DNA from: Thioalkalivibrio sp. ALE14 | GTDB lineage: Bacteria > Pseudomonadota > Gammaproteobacteria > Ectothiorhodospirales > Ectothiorhodospiraceae | DNA length: 64,000 nucleotides | Assembly (NCBI RefSeq): GCF_000376845.1 | Contig: NZ_AQXY01000025.1 | Location: 124,001-188,000 of the forward strand | Reading direction: 5' to 3' | Shown here: positions 42,946 through 56,838 of the stretch, one piece after another | How positions within the stretch are numbered: the stretch's first letter is position 1 | How the letters are laid out: each line of letters begins with the position of its first letter | Notes under the pieces: model-generated | The model's database searches: none | What the model was told of the DNA's origin: nothing | What the model saw: the letters and a program-made list of their open reading frames with translations, nothing else | Position numbers and translations under genes: made by a program

Positions 42946-44628
42946 TCAGCTCCGGCCGAGCGGTTTCGCGATCTCGAGGCGCGGCCAGCTGGCCGGCAGT
43001 TGTTCCGGGGCATGGGTGACGAGGATGCACTGACGGTCCTGCAGCCAGGGCAGCAGCCGTTCCACCACTCGTTGTTGCGTGGGGGTATCCAGACCGGAAA
43101 AGGGCTCGTCGAGCAGGACGACAGGCCGGTCCTGAAGGACGACCGCCGCCAGGGCCAGACGGCGCCGCTGGCCGCCGGAAAGATACGAGCCGCCCTCGCC
43201 GATGCGGTAGTCCAGACCTTCGTCGGTACTGCGCACGGCCTCTGCGAGATCGACCTGTTCCAGGGCCTCCCACAGTGCGGCATCGCTCAACGGCGTGTGA
43301 TTCGGACTCAGTATGCTGCGGAGGGCCGTGTCCGGCAGTTGCAGGCCCTGGGGCAGGTAGCTGATGTGGCGGTACCGGCTATCGACCGTGATCCGTTGCA
43401 GATCGTCGTCGCCGAGCAATACGGTACCGCCCAGCGGTGGCATTTCGCCGGCGAGGGTATCCAGCAGCGTGCTCTTGCCGCGCCCGCTGGCCCCGCTGAT
43501 TACCAGGGGATGGCCGCGCACGGGTTCGAGGTCCAGTGGCCCGAGTAACGGGCGCTCGCGGCGAAAGCCGATGATCATGCGGTGGGCGCGCAGCGCAGGG
43601 ACCTCATCGGCCGGGGTCGGGTCCGGGCGCTCGACGGGTGCGGGGTTCTGGGCGGTCGTCTCCAGATGCTGCACGCGGCCGGCGGCCTCGAGACTCTCGC
43701 CGGCACGCCACCATGCGCCGGGCAGGCTGCCGAGGACCTCGCCCAGGCCCAGCGTCATCAGCGGGAGCAACACCGCGACAGGGGCGCTCAGCGCTCCGTC
43801 GCGATACCAGCCCAGTGCCAGCACCAGCATCAGCAGGGCGGCTGTGCCAACCACGGCCTGCACGAGCTGCTCGGACCCGACGCCAAATGCCTCCTGGGCA
43901 CGTTGCCGGCGGGCATAGGCGTCGTTGTCCTGCCGCAAAACGGCCTCGTGTTCGCGGGCGCGGTCGTAGGCCAGCAGTTCGGCCAGGCCGCCGATGTAGT
44001 CGAACAGCCCGACGCGTTCCCGGGCCCGGGCCTGCACGAGTGCGTGGCTGCGCCGCTGTCCGGCAAGGGCGAGCAGACCGGAGACCGCGAGCGTCGCGAC
44101 GCCCGAGGCCGCGAGTACGACCGCGGCGGGCCAGGGTGCCAGCCAGACGGCGATGACCAGCGTGACCACCAGGCTGATCGCCGCCGCGATCATGGGGCCA
44201 ACCACCCGCAGGGGCATCGCATCGAGGGTGTCGATGTCGCCGGTCAGGCGCGTCTGCAGGTCGCCACTGCGGTAGGCGCGAATGCGTTCCATGGGCAGCG
44301 CGGCGAGGCCGCGGAAGCTGTGGCCGCGCAGGTCGGCCAGGCTGCGCAGCACCGCCTCGTGACTGACCAGGCGTTCGAAGTAGCGCGCTAGGGTGCGACT
44401 GATCGCGGCGGTGCGGATGCCACCGGACGGCACGTAGAGGTCCAGGGTGGCCAGAAGCCCGGCGCCGGCCAGGGCGGTCGCGGTGATGAACCAGCCGGAC
44501 AGCGCCAGCAGCGCGATGCCGGCGATCCAGGTCAATGCCAGAAGGCCCCAGGCACCCCAGTACCAGGCCCGGCGTTGGCGGAATACGCGATGCAGAAAGG
44601 CCAGTTTGGCACGGGTCCCGTCACGCAT
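42946..44628 (-). CDS. cydC: thiol-reductant ABC exporter subunit CydC
   Basis: This 560-residue ABC half-transporter has six helices in the first 300 residues, then an ATPase domain. Walker A is SGASGRGKST, the signature is YLSGGQRRRLAL and Walker B is VVLLDEPFSGLD. CydDC exports cysteine/glutathione (and affects haem) to the periplasm and is needed for cytochrome bd assembly. It starts eight bases inside the end of cydD. The pairing with SQR-like and cydAB genes in one island fits that role. Confidence 0.93.
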   Translation of the reverse strand: MRDGTRAKLAFLHRVFRQRRAWYWGAWGLLALTWIAGIALLALSGWFITATALAGAGLLATLDLYVPSGGIRTAAISRTLARYFERLVSHEAVLRSLADLRGHSFRGLAALPMERIRAYRSGDLQTRLTGDIDTLDAMPLRVVGPMIAAAISLVVTLVIAVWLAPWPAAVVLAASGVATLAVSGLLALAGQRRSHALVQARARERVGLFDYIGGLAELLAYDRAREHEAVLRQDNDAYARRQRAQEAFGVGSEQLVQAVVGTAALLMLVLALGWYRDGALSAPVAVLLPLMTLGLGEVLGSLPGAWWRAGESLEAAGRVQHLETTAQNPAPVERPDPTPADEVPALRAHRMIIGFRRERPLLGPLDLEPVRGHPLVISGASGRGKSTLLDTLAGEMPPLGGTVLLGDDDLQRITVDSRYRHISYLPQGLQLPDTALRSILSPNHTPLSDAALWEALEQVDLAEAVRSTDEGLDYRIGEGGSYLSGGQRRRLALAAVVLQDRPVVLLDEPFSGLDTPTQQRVVERLLPWLQDRQCILVTHAPEQLPASWPRLEIAKPLGRS

Positions 44629-46339
44629 CGTGTGTCTCCGGAGTGGCCGGCGTCAGTTCCAGGCGTTGCGGGCAGCGCTGGTGGATGGCGGCATGATGAC
44701 TCGCGATCACCAGCGTCAGGCCCCGGGCCTCGGCCAGCTGAAACAGCGTGTCGAGCAAGGCCTGTTCGGTGTCCGGGTCGAGTGCACTGGTGGGTTCGTC
44801 GAGCAGCCAGAGTCGGTGCCCCGAGAGCAGGGCGCGTGCCACGGCGACCCGCTGGGCCTGACCGCCGGAAAGCCCGTGCCGGGCCTCGCCGATAGCGGTA
44901 TCCAGGCCGTCGGGGAGCTCCGGGGCATCGAGCGGCAGCCCGGCCTGCTCCAGCGCCGTGGCCATCTCCGCATCGGCGATCGTTGCATGGCGGGCGAGCT
45001 GCAGGTTCTCGCGCAGGCTGCCGTGGAACAGATGGGCGTCCTGGTCGATCCAGGCGAAATGCCGGGCCAGGGGATGGCGCCGGACGCGGCCTTCGGCGGG
45101 CGGCAGGAAGCCGGCGCACACCGCGAGCAGGGTGGACTTGCCACTGCCACTGGGCCCGGTCAGCGCGAGATGCGCCCCGGTTTGAATCTCGAGGTCGAGA
45201 GACTTCAGGACGGGCGTGCGCTGCCCCGGGTAGTGCACCGTGACGCCTTCGAGCTGCAGCCAGGGGCCGGTCACGTCCTCGCGATTGAATTCGGTGGCCT
45301 CGGCCAGCCCCTCGGGGTCGGTGGGTGCCGCAAGCGCGGGGGCAAGGCTCTGCGCCGCCGCCAGGGCGCTCGCGCGGTCATGGTAGCTCTGGGCGAACTG
45401 GCGCAGGGGCAGGAAGTACTCCGGCGCCAGCAGCAGGACGAACAACCCGGTGAACAGGGTGATGTCGCCGGCGGGGCCGTAGTCGATGGCGCCGAACAGG
45501 GCGAAGCCGATGTAGATGGCGACCATGCCGATGGCAACCGCGCTGAAGAATTCCATGATCGCCGAGGACAGGAACGCGACCCGCAGGGTGCGCATGGTCA
45601 GCCGCCGTTGCTGGTGACTGCGCTCGACGACCTCCGTCTCGGTCGCGGCGATGGCGCGGGCTCGGCGCAGCCAGTCCAGGGTACGGATACGGTCGAGAAA
45701 GTGCCCCGCCAGGCGGTTCTCCTCCTCCTGCTGACGCCGGTGGATCTGTTCCGCGCCCATGCCGACGATCGCCATGAACGCCGGGATCAGCGGAGCGGCG
45801 AGCAGCAACAGCAGGGCGGCGAGCCAGTCCAGCCAGAGTGCCGCGACCAGGATCGCCAGTGGCGTCAGGATGACCGCCTGGCGCGCGGGCAGGTAGCGCG
45901 CGTAGTAGCCGGTCAGGTCATCCACCCGCGTCTGGAACTGCTCGGCCCAGGCACCCGCGGTGGTCTGCCCGGCCAGCCGCGCAGGTCCGGCCTCCCGGGC
46001 CTGTTGCAGGAGATCGGCGCGCAGCTGCTGCTTCACCGCGAAGGCGAGGCGGTGACCGGCCAGATCCCGCAGGGTCTGGGCGGCATAGCGCAGGGCGAGC
46101 AACACGAGGCCCGCGAGCAGGATGCCCGGCAGGTTCGGGGGATCATTGGCGAACAGCGTCCCGTGCACCGCCCAGGCCACCAGCCCCGCCAGCGCAATGG
46201 TGGCCAGCGTGGCCACCAGCGTGCCCGCGGCGCTGAGCGCCAGCCAGCGGCGGTGCGGCCGTTGCCGCACGCGCAGCCATTGCCCCGGCGAGGCACGGTC
46301 GTCCGTCGCCTGTGCGTCTGTTCCACCCGGTTGCGTCAT
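44621..46339 (-). CDS. cydD: thiol-reductant ABC exporter subunit CydD
   Basis: This 572-residue partner of CydC has six helices to about residue 310 and an ATPase domain with Walker A TGPSGSGKST, signature LSGGQAQRVAVARALL and Walker B LWLLDEPTSALD. The transmembrane part has the CydD-like EQIHRRQQEEENRLAGHFLD stretch. It begins four bases after the SQR-like gene stop and is almost certainly in the same transcript. Confidence 0.93.
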   Translation of the reverse strand: MTQPGGTDAQATDDRASPGQWLRVRQRPHRRWLALSAAGTLVATLATIALAGLVAWAVHGTLFANDPPNLPGILLAGLVLLALRYAAQTLRDLAGHRLAFAVKQQLRADLLQQAREAGPARLAGQTTAGAWAEQFQTRVDDLTGYYARYLPARQAVILTPLAILVAALWLDWLAALLLLLAAPLIPAFMAIVGMGAEQIHRRQQEEENRLAGHFLDRIRTLDWLRRARAIAATETEVVERSHQQRRLTMRTLRVAFLSSAIMEFFSAVAIGMVAIYIGFALFGAIDYGPAGDITLFTGLFVLLLAPEYFLPLRQFAQSYHDRASALAAAQSLAPALAAPTDPEGLAEATEFNREDVTGPWLQLEGVTVHYPGQRTPVLKSLDLEIQTGAHLALTGPSGSGKSTLLAVCAGFLPPAEGRVRRHPLARHFAWIDQDAHLFHGSLRENLQLARHATIADAEMATALEQAGLPLDAPELPDGLDTAIGEARHGLSGGQAQRVAVARALLSGHRLWLLDEPTSALDPDTEQALLDTLFQLAEARGLTLVIASHHAAIHQRCPQRLELTPATPETHDA

Positions 46340-46342
46340 CGA

Positions 46343-47728
46343 CTAGCGCAGATAGCGCCCGCGCAGCATGTTGAAGTACAGCGGCTTGATCATGTGGACC
46401 TTCAGGCGCCACCACATCCAGCTGGGTTCCCCCTGATCGAGGAAGCTGAAGGTCGGCACCTCCTGCAGGCTGTAGTCGAACTCCACCAGGGCGGCCTTGC
46501 CCACCTCGGTGATCAGCGGACAGGAGGTGTAGCCGTCGAACTGCCGCGAGGGCTCCCGATCCTGGATCACGTCGACCAGGTTGTCCGGCATCACCGCGCC
46601 ATGCGAACGCACGGTGGATGCGGTCTTGCCGATCGCGGTCGCGACCACGTCCCCGGCCCCGAAGATGTTCGGGTAGTCCGTGTGCTGCAGCGTGCGGTCA
46701 TCCACCGCCAGCCAGCCACCGGCCGCCAGGGGCCCGTCATCCACCGCCAGGCCGGCGTCGCGAACAAAGTCGTGCGCGCGCATCGGCGGGGTCACGTGAA
46801 GATAGTCGTAGTCAACGGTCTCGCGCCCGCCGTCGCGGGTCTCGAACTGGGCCTGGCGGGCGGCGACATCCACCGCCACCAGGGCGCCGCCGTCGTTCAC
46901 GCTCACGCCGCGTTCGGCATACAGGTCGCGCACCAGGTGGTCGAAGCGCTGCACGCTGAACAGGGTGTCCGATCCCGTGTGATAGTGGAAATCGGCCCCG
47001 TTACGCTGGCCGGCCGAGCGCAACAGGTCATCGGCGATGAAGGTCGCCTTGATCGGCGCACCGGCACACTTGATCGGTGTATTGGGGATGGTGAAACGCG
47101 CGACCCCGCCGTTCTCGCCGAACGCATGGATCTGCTCGTAGGCATCGCGTGCGGCCTCGGCGCTGGCGTACAGGCTGGTCAGGCCGGGGCGGCCAATATC
47201 CTCGCGGCGCAGCCCCTCGATCGCCTCGTAGTCCAGATGCAAACCGGTGGCGACCACCAGGAAGTCGTAGTCGAGCCGGTCGCCGTCGGTGGTCTCGACC
47301 CGCTGCGATTCGGGATCAATGGCCGCCACCGCCGAGCGGACCCATTCCACCCCGCGCGGGATGTAGCGTTCGTTGCGGCGCTGGACCTCGCCCACCGAAT
47401 AGACGCCCGCGGCTACCAGCGTCCAGCCGGGCTGGTAATGATGGATCTCGCTCGGTTCGACAATCGTGATGCGCGCCCCGTCGAGCAGGTCGCGCAGGCG
47501 GGCGGCCATGGTCATCCCCGCGGCGCCCCCGCCGAGCACCACGATGCGGGCCTGGCTGGAGACCGCTGCGCGGGCCGGGGCGGCCTGTACGCCGGTCGCC
47601 GACACCAGGCCGGCGGCCCCGGCGATCTTCAGGAAATCGCGCCGGGAAATCCCCCGCAACGTCTCCTGCGCCTGACGGGCCAGGGCCTTTTCAATCTCGG
47701 GATGCTTCGGGTCTTCGGGATGATGCAT
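46343..47728 (-). CDS. Tat-exported FAD-dependent oxidoreductase, sulfide:quinone oxidoreductase-like
   Basis: This 461-residue flavoprotein has a twin-arginine signal (SRRDFLKIAGAAGLV at about residues 28-42), predicting export to the periplasm. The FAD-binding motif is RIVVLGGGAAGMTMAARL, and the second nucleotide region is DFLVVATGLHLDY. Two cysteines in IKCAGAPIK and YTSCPLITE match the redox Cys pair of sulfide:quinone reductases. The C terminus (WWRLKVHMIKPLYFNMLRGR) is amphipathic, as in membrane-bound SQR. It would oxidise sulfide and pass electrons to quinone. Flavocytochrome c sulfide dehydrogenase is an alternative. It heads the cydDC operon and is divergent from cydAB. Confidence 0.87.
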   Translation of the reverse strand: MHHPEDPKHPEIEKALARQAQETLRGISRRDFLKIAGAAGLVSATGVQAAPARAAVSSQARIVVLGGGAAGMTMAARLRDLLDGARITIVEPSEIHHYQPGWTLVAAGVYSVGEVQRRNERYIPRGVEWVRSAVAAIDPESQRVETTDGDRLDYDFLVVATGLHLDYEAIEGLRREDIGRPGLTSLYASAEAARDAYEQIHAFGENGGVARFTIPNTPIKCAGAPIKATFIADDLLRSAGQRNGADFHYHTGSDTLFSVQRFDHLVRDLYAERGVSVNDGGALVAVDVAARQAQFETRDGGRETVDYDYLHVTPPMRAHDFVRDAGLAVDDGPLAAGGWLAVDDRTLQHTDYPNIFGAGDVVATAIGKTASTVRSHGAVMPDNLVDVIQDREPSRQFDGYTSCPLITEVGKAALVEFDYSLQEVPTFSFLDQGEPSWMWWRLKVHMIKPLYFNMLRGRYLR

Positions 47729-47891
47729 GGCTCTCTCCGCGTATCCGTCTGCCGCGCCGGGGACCGGGCGGTCAGTTCTGAGGGGCGCGCCGTCTTGCGG
47801 GCGCTTCGTGTGACGGATTGCTTACAAGTTGCATGCCAACGCCGGCAGACCGCGCCACCGGGGCTTGTGTGCCGATATTGGCGCCATCAGG

Positions 47892-47938
47892 CTGCCATTT
47901 ATGACAGTCATGCGCGACAAGACTGACAAATATGGCAG
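47892..47938. promoter_or_regulatory. 18-bp-arm dyad between SQR-like gene and cydA (candidate enhancer/operator)
   Basis: The arms 47892-47909 (CTGCCATTTATGACAGTC) and 47921-47938 (GACTGACAAATATGGCAG) are complementary at 15 of 18 positions with an 11-base spacer. The centre is about 138 bases upstream of the start site predicted from the sigma-54 site at 48027, the usual distance of an enhancer-binding-protein site. It could also act on the divergent SQR-cydDC operon. The 367-base gap has no gene. Confidence 0.65.
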
Positions 47939-48026
47939 AACCGAGGCGGCGTTGGCTGGCGTCGGCCCGGTGGGAAAACACTGGTTTACAGCTTACAGCC
48001 CGTCGCCATGGTCCGGACAGGCAGTC

Positions 48027-48042
48027 TGGCACGGTACTTGTT
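48027..48042 (+). promoter_or_regulatory. candidate sigma-54 promoter of cydAB
   Basis: The site TGGCACGGTACTTGTT matches TGGCACG-N4-TTGCW except for T in place of the -12 C. It lies 54 bases before the cydA ATG. GG and the -12 G are correctly spaced. The gene after cydB encodes a sigma-54 activator, supporting the call. Confidence 0.7.
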
Positions 48043-48095
48043 AGGGATTCATCGATACGTCATTTCGGCGTGCCCCTGACGACGGAGGAAAGGCC

Positions 48096-49502
48096 ATGGA
48101 GCTCGACCCCATACTGCTATCGCGAATCCAGTTCGCGTTTGTTGTTTCGTTTCACGCGATCTTCCCGGTCTTCACGATCGGGCTGGCTTCGTTTATCGCG
48201 TTTCTGGAATTTCGCGCCTGGAAGACCGGCGACACGCTCTATACCCAGATCTCGAAGTTCTGGATCAAGATCTTCGCGGTGGTGTTCGGCATGGGCGTGG
48301 TCTCCGGGCTGGTCATGTCGTTCCAGTTCGGCACCAACTGGAGTGCGTTCTCCTACGCCACGGCCAATTTCCTCGGGCCCGTGTTGTCCTACGAGGTGCT
48401 GACCGCGTTCTTCCTGGAGGCGGCCTTCCTCGGCGTGCTGCTGTTCGGGCGTGACCGGGTCCCGCAGGGCGTGCATCTGTTCTCCGCGCTGATGGTGGCG
48501 CTGGGCACGTTCATCTCGTCGTTCTGGATCCTGGTGGCCAACAGCTGGATGCAGACACCGGTCGGTTTCGAGCTGCAGGACGGTGTGTTCCACGTCACCT
48601 CCTGGATCACGGCGATCTTCAACCCGAGCTTCTGGCCGCGCTTCTTCCACATGGGCCTGGCCTCGCTGCTGACGGCGGGCTTCGTGGTCGCCGGGGTCTC
48701 GGCCTGGTACCTGCTGCGTCAGCGCGATGTGGTGATGAATCGCAAGGCCCTGGGCACCACCATGTGGGTGCTGCTGTTCGCGGCACCGGCGCAGCTGGTG
48801 GTCGGTGATATCCACGGCCTCAACACCTTCGAGCATCAGCCGACCAAGGTGGCGGCGATGGAAGGCGTGTGGGAGACCGAGCGCGGGGCGCCGCTGCTCT
48901 TGTTCGCGATCCCGGACTCGGCCAACGAGACCAATCACTTCGAGATCGGTATCCCGAAGATGGCGAGCTTCATCCTCACCCACGAGATGGACGGGGAAGT
49001 GCCTGGCCTGCTGGAGGTTCCGGCCGAGGAACGTCCGCCGGTGGGCATCACCTTCTGGTCGTTCCGCGTGATGGTGGCGATTGGCATGGTGATGATCCTG
49101 TTCGCGCTGGCGGGTGCCTGGCTGCGCTTCCGCCGCCGGATGTATGCCTCGCCGCTGTTCCTCAAGGGGCTGGCCTGGATGATCCCGGCGCCGTTCCTGG
49201 CGGTGGTCGCGGGCTGGTTCGTGACCGAGACCGGGCGCGCGCCCTGGCTGGTCTACGGCGTGATGAATCATGCCGAGGGCATTACCCCGGCCCTGACCGG
49301 TGGCATGGCCCTGTTCACCCTGATCGGCTATGTGGCGGTCTACGCGGCGGTGTTCACCGGGGGCGTCTACTACCTGGTGCGCATCGTGCGTCAGGGCCCG
49401 GAACCGGCCGATGCCGTGCATGCGCCGGCGCACGCCAAGCGTCCGCTGTCGGCCGCTGACACCTTCGTCGATGACGCCGCGGTCAGCGGTGCAAGGAGCT
49501 AA
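48096..49502 (+). CDS. cydA: cytochrome bd-type quinol oxidase subunit I
   Basis: This 468-residue subunit has nine helices, binds haems b558, b595 and d, and carries the quinol site. The high-spin haem ligand His is in VVSFHAIFPVFTIGLA near the N terminus. GMGVVSGLVMSFQFGTNWS and the late GRAPWLVYG are family motifs. The periplasmic Q-loop is short, so this is the CioA/short-loop type. A GGAGG site precedes ATG 48096. It reduces O2 to water with quinol electrons without proton pumping, useful at low O2 or when sulfide inhibits haem-copper oxidases. Confidence 0.95.
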   Translation: MELDPILLSRIQFAFVVSFHAIFPVFTIGLASFIAFLEFRAWKTGDTLYTQISKFWIKIFAVVFGMGVVSGLVMSFQFGTNWSAFSYATANFLGPVLSYEVLTAFFLEAAFLGVLLFGRDRVPQGVHLFSALMVALGTFISSFWILVANSWMQTPVGFELQDGVFHVTSWITAIFNPSFWPRFFHMGLASLLTAGFVVAGVSAWYLLRQRDVVMNRKALGTTMWVLLFAAPAQLVVGDIHGLNTFEHQPTKVAAMEGVWETERGAPLLLFAIPDSANETNHFEIGIPKMASFILTHEMDGEVPGLLEVPAEERPPVGITFWSFRVMVAIGMVMILFALAGAWLRFRRRMYASPLFLKGLAWMIPAPFLAVVAGWFVTETGRAPWLVYGVMNHAEGITPALTGGMALFTLIGYVAVYAAVFTGGVYYLVRIVRQGPEPADAVHAPAHAKRPLSAADTFVDDAAVSGARS

Positions 49503-49505
49503 GTG

Positions 49506-50510
49506 ATGGAAACCACGATCGATATCACGCTGATCTGGGTCGTCATCATTGCCGTGGGCGTGATCGCCTACGTGCTGATGGACGGGTTCGACCTCGGGGT
49601 GGGGATTCTCTTCCCCTTTGCGCCGGGGGAGACCTCGCGCGACGTGATGATGAACTCGGTCGCCCCGGTTTGGGACGGCAACGAGACCTGGCTGATCCTC
49701 GGCGGGGCCGGGCTGCTGGCGGCCTTCCCGCTGGTCTACTCGGTGTTCCTGCCGGCGCTCTATATCGGGGTATTCCTGATGCTGGCCGGGCTGATCTTCC
49801 GCGGCGTGGCCTTCGAGTTCCGCTTCAAGGCACATCGCTCCAAGGGGCTGTGGAATGCTGCCTTCGCGATCGGCTCGGCGGTGGCGGCCTTCGCCCAGGG
49901 CGCGGTCGTGGGTGCCTACATCCAGGGCTTCGAGATGGATGGGTTAAGTTTCGCCGGCGGACCGCTGGACTGGCTGACGCCGTTCACCGTGCTCACCGGG
50001 ATCGGACTGCTGGCGGGCTATGCCTTGCTGGGCGCTACCTGGCTGATCGTCAAGACCGAGGGTGATACCCAGGCCTTTGCCTATCGGGTGGCGCCGTGGA
50101 TGCTGGCGGTCGTGCTGCTGGTGTTCGGCGCGGTGAGCTTCATCACGCCGTTTATCGATCCGAAGGTCATGGAGCGCTGGATGGGGACCTGGCAGTACCT
50201 CTGGGTGCTCCCGGCGCTGGCGCTGTTCTCCGCCTGGGTGCTGATTCGTGCGGTGCGCCGCCGTGACGAGGGGATCCCGTTTGTCGCCACGATTGCCCTG
50301 TTCATCACCACCTATCTCGGATTGCTGGTGAGCAAGTGGCCGTACGTGGTGCCGCCGGACTACACCTTCTGGGATGCGGCCTCCTCGCCGGATGCGCAGC
50401 TGTTCATCCTGGTGGGGGCGCTGTTCGTGATCCCGATCATCCTGGGTTACACCGCGTGGACCTACTGGGTCTTCCGCGGGAAGGTGACCCCGGAGACCGG
50501 CTATCACTAG
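49506..50510 (+). CDS. cydB: cytochrome bd-type quinol oxidase subunit II
   Basis: This 334-residue structural subunit of the bd oxidase has eight helices. The N-terminal signature is YVLMDGFDLGVGILFPF, followed by NSVAPVWDGNETWLILGGAG, both diagnostic. The start at ATG 49506 is seven bases after AGGAG; the GTG just before it is also possible. It follows cydA by three bases. No small CydX-type frame was recognised right after it. Confidence 0.95.
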   Translation: METTIDITLIWVVIIAVGVIAYVLMDGFDLGVGILFPFAPGETSRDVMMNSVAPVWDGNETWLILGGAGLLAAFPLVYSVFLPALYIGVFLMLAGLIFRGVAFEFRFKAHRSKGLWNAAFAIGSAVAAFAQGAVVGAYIQGFEMDGLSFAGGPLDWLTPFTVLTGIGLLAGYALLGATWLIVKTEGDTQAFAYRVAPWMLAVVLLVFGAVSFITPFIDPKVMERWMGTWQYLWVLPALALFSAWVLIRAVRRRDEGIPFVATIALFITTYLGLLVSKWPYVVPPDYTFWDAASSPDAQLFILVGALFVIPIILGYTAWTYWVFRGKVTPETGYH

Positions 50511-50661: not shown

Positions 50662-52143
50662 ATGCCGTTGAACATCGCTCGTCTGAACGTGTCTATCGGG
50701 CAGCGTGATGGCGTCGGTTCCGGTGTCGGATACGCCTTCCAGGACCCCTTTGTGCGAGGCGACGTGACGAGCATCCCGAAGAAGGAAACGGCACCCCTGG
50801 ATCCCGATGCCGGGACCCTGCGTCAGGTGCTGGATGTATTCCGTGAACCGGCCATCCTGCTGTCCCCGGACTATCGCATCCTGGCGGCCAATGGCGCCTA
50901 CCAGCGCATCTACGGGACCGACCGCGATGGCTCCGGCCGCACCTGCTTCGAGGCCTCGCACGGGTTCCGCCGCCCCTGCGACGAGGCGGGGGAGTCCTGC
51001 CCCCTGCGGGCCGCCCTGGGCAGTGGCCACCGCGAACGCGTGCTGCACGTGCATCACACCGAGGCCGGGCGCGAGCACGTGGACGTCGAGTTGCTGCCGA
51101 TCCGGGGCGAGGGCGGGGAGATCCGCTACCTGATCGAACGGCTGCACCACCTGCCGGTATCGGCACCGCAGGCGGGCAGTGGCGGGCTGTTCGGTCGCTC
51201 GAAGGCCTTCAATGCCATGCTGGGGATGATCAGCCGGGTGGCGCCGAGCAATGCCTCGGCCCTTCTGCTCGGCGAGTCCGGCACGGGCAAGGAACTGATC
51301 GCACGCGCCATTCACGAAGCGAGCCCGCGGCAGAAGTTGCCGTTCGTGCCCGTGGAATGCTCCGGCCTCACCGAAACCCTGTTCGAAAGCGAGCTGTTCG
51401 GCCATGAACGGGGGGCGTTTACCGGGGCGACCTCGGCCAAGGCCGGGCTGGTGGAGGCGGCGGCCGGCGGCACCCTGTTTCTCGACGAGGTGGGGGATAT
51501 CCCGCTGAGCCAGCAGGTCAAGTTGCTGCGGTTGCTGGAGACCCACGCCTATCGCCGTGTCGGGGGTGTCGAGTCGCGGCGGGCGGATTTCCGCCTGGTC
51601 TGTGCGACCCACCGCGATCTCGAATCCATGGTCCGGGCCGGCGAGTTTCGCGAGGACCTCTACTACCGCATCAACACCTTCCCGATCGAGGTGCCCCCGC
51701 TGCGCGCGCGGGCCGAGGATCTCCCGTTGCTGGTAGAAGCGCTCGGCGAGCGCCTGGATCTGGCCGTGCCGCCGCGCCTCGAAGAGGAGGCCCTGAAAAT
51801 CCTCAAGCAGTATTCCTTCCCCGGCAACGTGCGCGAGCTGCGCAACATCCTCGAGCGTGCGGCATTGCTGGCGGACGGCGAGGCGATCCGGCCGGAACAT
51901 CTTCCGGATCGCGTGCGGGAAGGAGGGCAGTCCCCGAGCGGGGCGGAGACCGGCGGACTGGACGGATTGCTGCATCCGCAGTCACTGCGCCCGCTGGACG
52001 AGATCGAGCGCGAATACCTGCGGCACGCGGCTGCGGTGTACCCCGGGGACCGCCGGGCGCTGGCGAAGACCCTGGGGATCAGCGAGCGCAGCTTGTACCG
52101 GCGCCTGAGCCAGCTCGAGGACGACGCCAACGAGCGGGACTGA
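50662..52143 (+). CDS. PAS-domain sigma-54-dependent activator with Cys/His cluster
   Basis: This enhancer-binding protein has 493 residues from ATG 50662 (GTG 50605 or a later GTG are possible). A PAS-like domain (about 48-155) contains C-x4-H-x5-C-x6-CP (Cys95, His100, Cys106, Cys113), suited to binding a metal, Fe-S cluster or making a redox switch. The AAA+ domain has [23 protein letters not shown] and [10 protein letters not shown]. The C-terminal Fis-type helix-turn-helix is [20 protein letters not shown]. It lies 151 bases after cydB and probably activates the sigma-54 promoter of cydAB through the dyad at 47892. The sensed signal is inferred to be redox or sulfur related. Confidence 0.88.
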
Positions 52144-52316: not shown

Positions 52317-52973
52317 ATGAAAAAGACCGCAATGACCCTCTCCCTGTCCGCCGCGCTGCTGGCCAGTCCGATGCTGGCCTCGGCCGAGCCGCTGTCGTTC
52401 GGCGAGCACCAGACCATCCGCTCGATGGCCAGTGCCGGCATCGGCCAGGCCATCGTGAACGAGATGGGGGCCGGTTCGATGGCCGTGATCAACAACCCGT
52501 CCGCGGTCTGCGGCGCCCTGGCCGGTGGGCTGGGTGCGTCGATGCTGTCGGCCGATCCGCAGGCCGGCTTCCGCATCGCCACCCTGCGCTCCGCTGACGA
52601 CGCCGCGGCCGCGGTGCGCGTGACCGCGGACAAGGACGTGGCCTATCTCGCACTCGGGGGAAATCTCGCGCGTGACGAAAACGTTGCCCTGGCCCACGCC
52701 TATCTGCAGGAACTCGCGGCCTCCGAATGGGACGGCACGCTGGTGCTGCATATCTCCTCGTGGATGCAGAAGCAGGTCCAGGCCGTCGCGGAGGCAGACA
52801 CGGCCGTGGCCGACTATCTTCAGGGGATCAACATGGTCGCGCTCCAGCCCGACCTGGATGCGGGTCAGGCGGTGATGCTGGGTGTGAACTTCGACGGCGA
52901 GCGCTTCACGACCGAGGAGATGGGTCGCCAGGACATGCGCCAGGACCTCGTGGAGCTGTTCCGCCGTATGTGA
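52317..52973 (+). CDS. secreted protein of unknown function
   Basis: This 218-residue protein has a clear signal peptide (MKKTAMTLSLSAALLASPM, cleavage near ASAEP) and a TGGAG site before ATG 52317. The mature region has alternating Ala-rich helices and strands, a single Cys (NNPSAVCGALAGG) and a segment WDGTLVLHISSWMQKQVQA. No family was recognised. It has its own 173-base upstream region with a short GC hairpin at 52147-52162. It is probably periplasmic. Confidence 0.8.
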   Translation: MKKTAMTLSLSAALLASPMLASAEPLSFGEHQTIRSMASAGIGQAIVNEMGAGSMAVINNPSAVCGALAGGLGASMLSADPQAGFRIATLRSADDAAAAVRVTADKDVAYLALGGNLARDENVALAHAYLQELAASEWDGTLVLHISSWMQKQVQAVAEADTAVADYLQGINMVALQPDLDAGQAVMLGVNFDGERFTTEEMGRQDMRQDLVELFRRM

Positions 52974-55845: not shown

Positions 55846-56838
55846 CTACGGGGTGCAAGGGGTTTCATGGCGGGCTTGATACGGGGTTTGGGATTTGAGC
55901 ACACCGAAGGCGATGTGCAGGAGTTTGCGCATGGCCGCCCCGATTGCCGACATCTTGGCCTTGCCGCGTGTCAGCAGACGTTGATGTTGGTGTCGCACGT
56001 CCGGGTTGTACCGGGTCGCCACCACCGCCGCCATGTAGAGCGCCTTGCGCAGTCGGCTGGAACCGATCTTTGCCAACCGTGAGGGCCGCCGGACCGTGGC
56101 CCCCGATTCTTCCAGGACCGGCGCCAGCCCATGGAACGCCGCCGCTTGTCGAGCGCTCGTGAACGCGCGGCTGCGCAGCGCTGCGGTCATCGAGGCCGAC
56201 AGCACTCGGCCGATGCCGGGGATGCTCTCCAGCAAGGCCCGATCCCGCTTCAGGTGGTGATGAGCGTCGAAGTGATCGTCGATCTGCTGCTGGAGCCGAC
56301 GGTGTTCCTCACGCAGGGCCTGCAGGACGTTGTCGATCGACGCCTGGGCTAGGGTGTCCTCGCTGAAACGCGCCTTCTCCAGGCGGTTCTCTTCGCGCCG
56401 CATGTCCTGTTCCAGAGCCCCCAGGCGGCTGAGCAGGCGCTTGAGTTCCCGCACCTCCGGCGGTTCGGGCTGCCAGCGCCGTGGTGCGCGTTCGATGCCG
56501 TAGCGGGCCAGCATCATGCTGTCCTTGCGGTCGGTCTTGTTGCGCACCCCCATGCCCTTGGCATGCGAACGCACCTGGGCCGGGTTCAGCACGTGGACCT
56601 GCACCCCCTGATCATGAAGCCAGTACGCCAGCGGCTCGTGGTAGATGCCGGTGGCCTCCAGATACACATGGAGCCCCTCGGGGGCCTCGCCGGTGTTGCG
56701 CTCGAGCCAGCGCAGCATCTCCGGATACTGGTCCCGACGGTTCGGGAACACCTTCGGCTTCACCTTGCCCGCTGCCAGGTCCCGGACCCACATGCAGTCG
56801 AGCTTGTTCTTGCTAACATCAATGCCAATATGAGCCAT
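55846..56838 (-). CDS. IS110-family transposase
   Basis: This 330-residue DEDD-type (RuvC-like) recombinase has the N-terminal GIDVSKNKLDCMWV (first Asp), HVYLEATGIYHEPLAYWL (Glu) and MGVRNKTDRKDSMMLARYG (Asp pair). The C-terminal domain has LLESIPGIGRVLSASM and AAFHGLAPVLEESG, which holds the conserved Ser-bearing region. It is full length and looks intact. Recombinases of this family are guided by a bridge RNA encoded in the element's noncoding end. The element borders are not defined by inverted repeats. REP-like units lie on its upstream side. Confidence 0.95.
   Translation of the reverse strand: MAHIGIDVSKNKLDCMWVRDLAAGKVKPKVFPNRRDQYPEMLRWLERNTGEAPEGLHVYLEATGIYHEPLAYWLHDQGVQVHVLNPAQVRSHAKGMGVRNKTDRKDSMMLARYGIERAPRRWQPEPPEVRELKRLLSRLGALEQDMRREENRLEKARFSEDTLAQASIDNVLQALREEHRRLQQQIDDHFDAHHHLKRDRALLESIPGIGRVLSASMTAALRSRAFTSARQAAAFHGLAPVLEESGATVRRPSRLAKIGSSRLRKALYMAAVVATRYNPDVRHQHQRLLTRGKAKMSAIGAAMRKLLHIAFGVLKSQTPYQARHETPCTP

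Follow-up and report, generated by a model that had tools for sequence, protein, structure and literature searches.

What controls the transcription of cytochrome bd genes that lie back to back with a sulfide:quinone oxidoreductase gene in Thioalkalivibrio, a sulfur-oxidizing bacterium of soda lakes? The window, a 64,000-nucleotide stretch of a 3.02-Mb Thioalkalivibrio genome, contains such a locus, in which sqr, cydD and cydC on the minus strand are separated from cydA, cydB and a regulator gene on the plus strand by a 367-bp intergenic region.

Gene organization of the locus

The divergent unit consists of six genes.

42946–44628 (−): cydC (TIGR02868 above cut-off)
44621–46339 (−): cydD (TIGR02857 above cut-off)
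46343–47728 (−): sqr, sulfide:quinone oxidoreductase-like flavoprotein with a Tat signal (Pyr_redox_2 and TAT_signal)
48096–49502 (+): cydA, cytochrome bd subunit I (PF01654, 6e-163), with a short CIO-like N-terminus and GRAPW
49503–50510 (+): cydB, cytochrome bd subunit II (PF02322; TIGR00203 above cut-off)
50662–52143 (+): gene for a FisR-type sigma-54 activator (PAS_4, Sigma54_activat and HTH_8, in that order), with Cys95, Cys106 and Cys113 in numbering from ATG 50662

The oxidase has both subunits of a cytochrome bd quinol oxidase, and its GRxPW motif reads GRAPW. The top NCBIfam match of the sqr product is the type III SQR model, at a score under that model's cut-off. No pdo gene was seen in the sqr/cydAB/regulator unit of the window. 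A secreted-looking protein of 218 residues is encoded 3' of the regulator gene (52317–52973, +) and is kept in most Thioalkalivibrio cyd loci; it matches no Pfam or NCBIfam family and possibly belongs to the cyd/regulator unit. Further downstream, a transposase-like reading frame resembles the IS110 family (55846–56838, −).

A FisR-type regulator with a cysteine triad

The sequence-only reading had placed a sigma-54 activator gene after cydB, and the Sigma54_activat, HTH_8 and PAS_4 domains of the product bear this out. The likely start of the gene is ATG 50662, at a conserved MPLN, instead of GTG 50605. The regulator carries GAFTGA, and its PAS–AAA+–Fis order fits FisR-type activators, as does its linkage to sqr across the divergent unit. 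No NCBIfam equivalog scored above cut-off for this protein. The PAS domain contains a C-x10-C-x6-C triad that is invariant among 11 aligned relatives and occurs in 94 of 95 regulators, a set that was chosen by its PAS cysteine motif and is biased in this respect. A FisR-like protein of the Cupriavidus metallidurans CH34 megaplasmid, encoded divergently from pdo-sqr, shares 52.5% identity with the window regulator over 432 residues and has the identical triad spacing (Cys53, Cys64 and Cys71). FisR from C. pinatubonensis is reported to have its cysteines at these numbers. Because the window protein is a FisR-type activator, its signal is likely to be reactive sulfur, and by kinship with FisR we infer that sulfide or persulfide is sensed.

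Only about 26 bp separate cydB from the regulator gene in two relatives (L035 and L036), so cotranscription with cydAB is likely, and the regulator gene probably shares the cydAB operon.

Predicted divergent sigma-54 promoters and tandem palindromes

The intergenic region contains four predicted regulatory elements.

47825–47838 (−): predicted divergent sigma-54 −24/−12 promoter of sqr-cydDC, TGGCATG-CAAC-TTG, with +1 predicted near 47814
47892–47907 (no strand): predicted upstream activator palindrome 1, CTGCCATTTATGACAG, a pattern match with conserved half-sites and a non-conserved spacer
47923–47938 (no strand): predicted upstream activator palindrome 2, CTGACAAATATGGCAG, a pattern match with conserved half-sites
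48027–48040 (+): predicted sigma-54 −24/−12 promoter of cydAB, TGGCACG-GTAC-TTG (TGGCACGGTACTTG), with +1 predicted near 48051

The near-consensus promoter previously reported ahead of cydA, whose ATG is at 48096, was thus recovered, and a second, divergent promoter ahead of sqr, which the earlier reading overlooked, was added. Both have GG at −24, G at −12, the exact spacing and candidate sites upstream, and the genome contains rpoN; their −12 elements read TTGT, without the usual C. The promoter pattern TGGCAYGNNNNTTG occurs twice in the window vs 0.26 expected, and two of its seven occurrences in the whole genome, where the reversed-pattern control gives five, fall in the sqr–cydA region. 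The region was also scanned for sigma-70-like promoters and FNR-type boxes (up to two mismatches allowed), and neither type of element was found.

The two palindromes, each 16 bp long, are arranged in tandem between the divergent −24/−12 elements and follow CTGCCA-N4-TGRCAG, with their centres 31 bp apart (three helical turns). They lie 96.5 and 127.5 bp upstream of the −24 element; sigma-54 enhancer sites are generally found roughly 60–200 bp upstream. The pattern CTGNCANNNNTGNCAG occurs twice in the window, both times here, vs 0.13 expected, and at three places in the genome. The third genomic match (C19:3112) was read as a chance occurrence; the stretch around it has no recognizable sulfur or respiratory gene. 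The dyad with 18-bp arms that had been described about 138 bases before the start does exist (arms 47892–47909 and 47921–47938, 15 of 18 positions paired) and is centred at 47915, some 136 bases ahead of the +1 predicted near 48051, but it is really the outer symmetry of the two tandem palindromes. Dyads of this grade are not rare, with eight listed in 64 kb, some of them overlapping, and an inverted-repeat search at seed 9 did not return this one because it is imperfect.

Conservation within Thioalkalivibrio

The order of sqr, cydAB and the regulator gene is kept in nine Thioalkalivibrio genomes, in seven of which cydDC lies beside sqr. The intergenic regions of these nine genomes were aligned, and column identity was computed only between three lineages. 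Identity reaches 0.98 in the cydA −24/−12 element, 0.88 in the sqr −24/−12 element and 0.74–0.96 in the palindrome half-sites, vs 0.25–0.34 in the palindrome spacers and 0.41 in the remainder of the region. When an operator mask was slid along the alignment, the true position scored highest of 300. In the two most distant genomes (loci G007 and G013), the palindromes are present only in degenerate form.

Thioalkalivibrio also contains a paralogous group of regulators without cyd linkage (L042–L048), in which mostly one palindrome directly precedes the regulator gene; this placement suggests that these paralogues may be autoregulated. A Fer2 reductase-like gene is located near one of them (L042).

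The palindrome accompanies the regulator family

At the loci of related regulators, the palindrome is found ahead of the regulator gene, the adjoining operon or both, irrespective of the neighbouring genes. Of 80 regions that precede related regulators, 46 contain CTGCCA-N4-TGGCAG with up to two mismatches, and other spacer lengths yield 3–10 matches in the same set. The true half-site ranks best of 120 permuted half-sites, the next of which gives 9. The region of the C. metallidurans regulator contains no close match with a spacer of four. Since palindrome and regulator co-occur, which is the best available evidence on this point, the regulator is the candidate protein for palindrome binding.

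Other members of the family adjoin different genes. At L041 (7127–11481; the host is probably T. sulfidiphilus) and at L040, a FisR-type regulator faces an operon for multi-spanning membrane proteins and the flavoprotein of a flavocytochrome c sulfide dehydrogenase. A sigma-54-like site and two palindromes, spaced 30 bp apart, lie in front. One of the multi-spanning proteins has a CSNCH haem-c motif, and these proteins gave no Pfam match; the L041 neighbours look cydA-like by eye and, given the lack of a Pfam match, were not counted as cytochrome bd. In Gallionellaceae and relatives (L058, L081, L090, L109 and L129), FisR-type regulators adjoin a FixG/CcoG-like ferredoxin protein, which suggests additional targets in respiration; a search that allowed up to one mismatch did not find the CTGYCA palindrome at these five loci.

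Recurrent linkage with cytochrome bd

The pairing of the regulator with cytochrome bd extends to other Gamma- and Betaproteobacteria. A scan of GTDB genomes provided 77 related loci outside the Thioalkalivibrio cyd loci, picked by the PAS cysteine motif and hence biased to that type, of which 38 contain sqr or pdo and 21 have cydA adjoining the regulator gene (11 of these 21 together with sqr or pdo), in most cases preceded by a sigma-54 site and a palindrome. The cydA-linked loci occur in Nitrincola, Thalassolituus, Zhongshania, Neomelitea, Pseudohongiella, Azoarcus, Malikia, Zoogloea and others, and cyd genes also lie beside the regulator on two Pseudoalteromonas plasmids, with no sqr or pdo detected near one such unit (L136). 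Across 23 cyd-linked intergenic regions, both elements are strongly over-represented, with combined p-values of 4e-28 for the sigma-54 site and 3e-18 for the palindrome, values that are indicative only, as kin species were treated as independent and the promoter weights were set from the published consensus. The palindrome in these regions is mostly 81–149 bp upstream of −24. Weaker cases are those (e.g. L057 and L116) in which another gene intervenes between cydA and the regulator gene, since the promoter detected may be that of this first gene.

The cyd label has to change 13 times on the regulator tree, and well-supported branches force at least eight of these changes; therefore, the pairing has been gained or lost repeatedly. 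Judged by their N-termini and lengths, the CydA proteins at cyd-linked loci fall into at least two kinds, one short and CIO-like, the other long and bd-I-like; this, too, favours repeated recruitment of cytochrome bd. A dedicated sigma-54 circuit for cyd had been presented as a notable variation; the circuit itself gains comparative support, but it is no lone variation, as the arrangement is widespread.

Proposed circuit and alternative explanations

Based on the observed sequence elements and their conservation, the kinship and cysteine triad of the regulator, its co-occurrence with the palindrome and the recurring cyd linkage, we propose with good confidence that a FisR-type activator and sigma-54 RNA polymerase switch on both sqr and cytochrome bd in Thioalkalivibrio in response to sulfide or persulfide. 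The activator encoded after cydB would bind the tandem pair of CTGCCA-N4-TGRCAG palindromes in the sqr–cydA intergenic region. Sulfide would be converted into sulfane sulfur (persulfide), which would modify the three-cysteine PAS domain of the activator, and the modified protein would hydrolyse ATP to open sigma-54 RNA polymerase at both divergent −24/−12 promoters in vivo. SQR, which would oxidize sulfide and pass electrons to quinone, CydAB, a presumably sulfide-resistant quinol oxidase that would transfer electrons to oxygen, and the assembly transporter CydDC would be induced jointly. The activator gene, probably a part of the cydAB operon, would be induced as well, creating positive feedback. 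The suggestion of a sigma-54 circuit for cydAB is supported by the promoters and palindromes kept in the nine genomes, by their recurrence upstream of cydA in other genera and by the palindrome following the regulator, and the same evidence supports the idea that the dyad is an activator site that also serves the sqr-cydDC operon.

Could the same sigma-54 circuit respond to a different signal? The PAS domain might sense the quinone or redox state, low oxygen, NO or cyanide, and cytochrome bd would then be induced by general respiratory stress. Relatives that lie beside cyd without sqr or pdo in Pseudoalteromonas (L136), Malikia (L116), Zoogloea (L120) and Thalassolituus (L057) would suit such a signal, as would the regulator beside the FixG/CcoG-like protein at L090. 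However, about half of the related loci do contain sqr or pdo, the triad has the spacing of the C. metallidurans protein and the window itself couples cyd with sqr, and we regard a signal other than reactive sulfur as unlikely. The palindromes might instead bind some unrelated repressor or activator, and an FNR/ANR- or ArcA-type regulator might be the main driver of cydAB, acting at an unrecognized promoter; the genome does encode CRP/FNR-type HTH proteins, and most known cyd operons are under such control. This explanation is very improbable, given that neither an FNR-type box (up to two mismatches) nor a sigma-70-like promoter was found in the region and given the tendency of the palindrome to travel with the FisR-type gene whatever its neighbours. 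Least probable is a set of chance matches in GC-rich DNA, which is already contradicted by conservation over nine genomes and recurrence in other genera. The commonness of such dyads and the near-control genomic count of the promoter pattern (7 vs 5) would allow for chance, but a single 367-bp region holds two of the genome's three palindromes and two of its seven promoter patterns.

Beyond this locus, the proposed circuit leads us to a broader view that we favour with some reserve. FisR-type persulfide sensors may have been assembled repeatedly into a sigma-54 switch, widespread in Gamma- and Betaproteobacteria, for respiration that resists sulfide. Through a conserved CTGYCA-N4-TGRCAG operator, this switch would place cytochrome bd, in more than one CydA type and whether or not sqr/pdo is included, under the control of reactive sulfur, and in many species it would take the place of FNR, ArcA or Rex as the main cyd regulator. 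Cytochrome bd is known to sustain bacterial respiration in sulfide, and the circuit offers a concrete candidate regulator, operator and promoter that can be tested in culturable species, including Thioalkalivibrio versutus, Nitrincola, Zhongshania, Thalassolituus and Pseudoalteromonas. If true, a single control unit would govern sulfide oxidation together with the oxidase to which its electrons pass.

Comparison with known systems

Transcription of cyd operons is controlled by ArcA, FNR/ANR, CydR and Rex, which respond to oxygen or redox at sigma-70 promoters. The proposed window circuit would likewise represent transcriptional control of cytochrome bd, but neither an FNR-type box (up to two mismatches) nor a sigma-70-like promoter was found in its region. 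A paper on the evolution of C. necator was considered as a precedent, given its cydA2B2 operon and rpoN mutations, and was set aside; it is not evidence for sigma-54 control of cyd because the new promoter that arose by mutation is sigma-70-like and the rpoN mutations had no specific effect. In excerpts of papers on Nitrospira, Methylococcus and Acidithiobacillus, sigma-54 and bd oxidases are both mentioned, but no link is made between the two. We found no report of FisR or sigma-54 control of cytochrome bd, cydAB or cioAB in the open-access literature, an absence that is not proof.

Cytochrome bd is sulfide-resistant and sulfide-induced in Escherichia coli and Acinetobacter baumannii, according to excerpts of PMC7315123 and PMC9774250, and the mechanism of sulfide-dependent cyd induction has been described as having remained unknown (PMC9774250). 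E. coli YgaV is a regulator that responds to sulfide, and cydAB transcripts rise when it is lost (PMC9774250), but it is an unrelated protein of the SqrR/BigR type that lacks a sigma-54 activator domain. A. baumannii FisR resembles the window regulator as a sigma-54 activator needed for sulfide induction of pdo1-sqr in an organism where cydAB also rises with sulfide; the excerpts of PMC7315123 name no regulator for that cydAB. Because A. baumannii FisR still mediates sulfide induction without regulatory cysteines (PMC7315123), the cysteine triad and the signal are not strictly tied.

Another close counterpart is FisR of C. pinatubonensis JMP134 (Li et al. 2017, via PMC7315123 and PMC9774590), a sigma-54 activator of sulfide-oxidizing genes with three sensing cysteines. 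Excerpts of these two papers describe FisR as activating sigma-54 transcription of sqr/pdo, and those of PMC9774590 report that it senses reactive sulfur through disulfide and tetrasulfide links among the three conserved cysteines. Whereas the targets described there are sqr/pdo, the window would add cydAB (and cydDC), with divergent sigma-54 promoters. Measured against the open-access literature, in which FisR control of sqr/pdo is already known, the extension to cytochrome bd would widen the range of an established circuit and not constitute a new kind.
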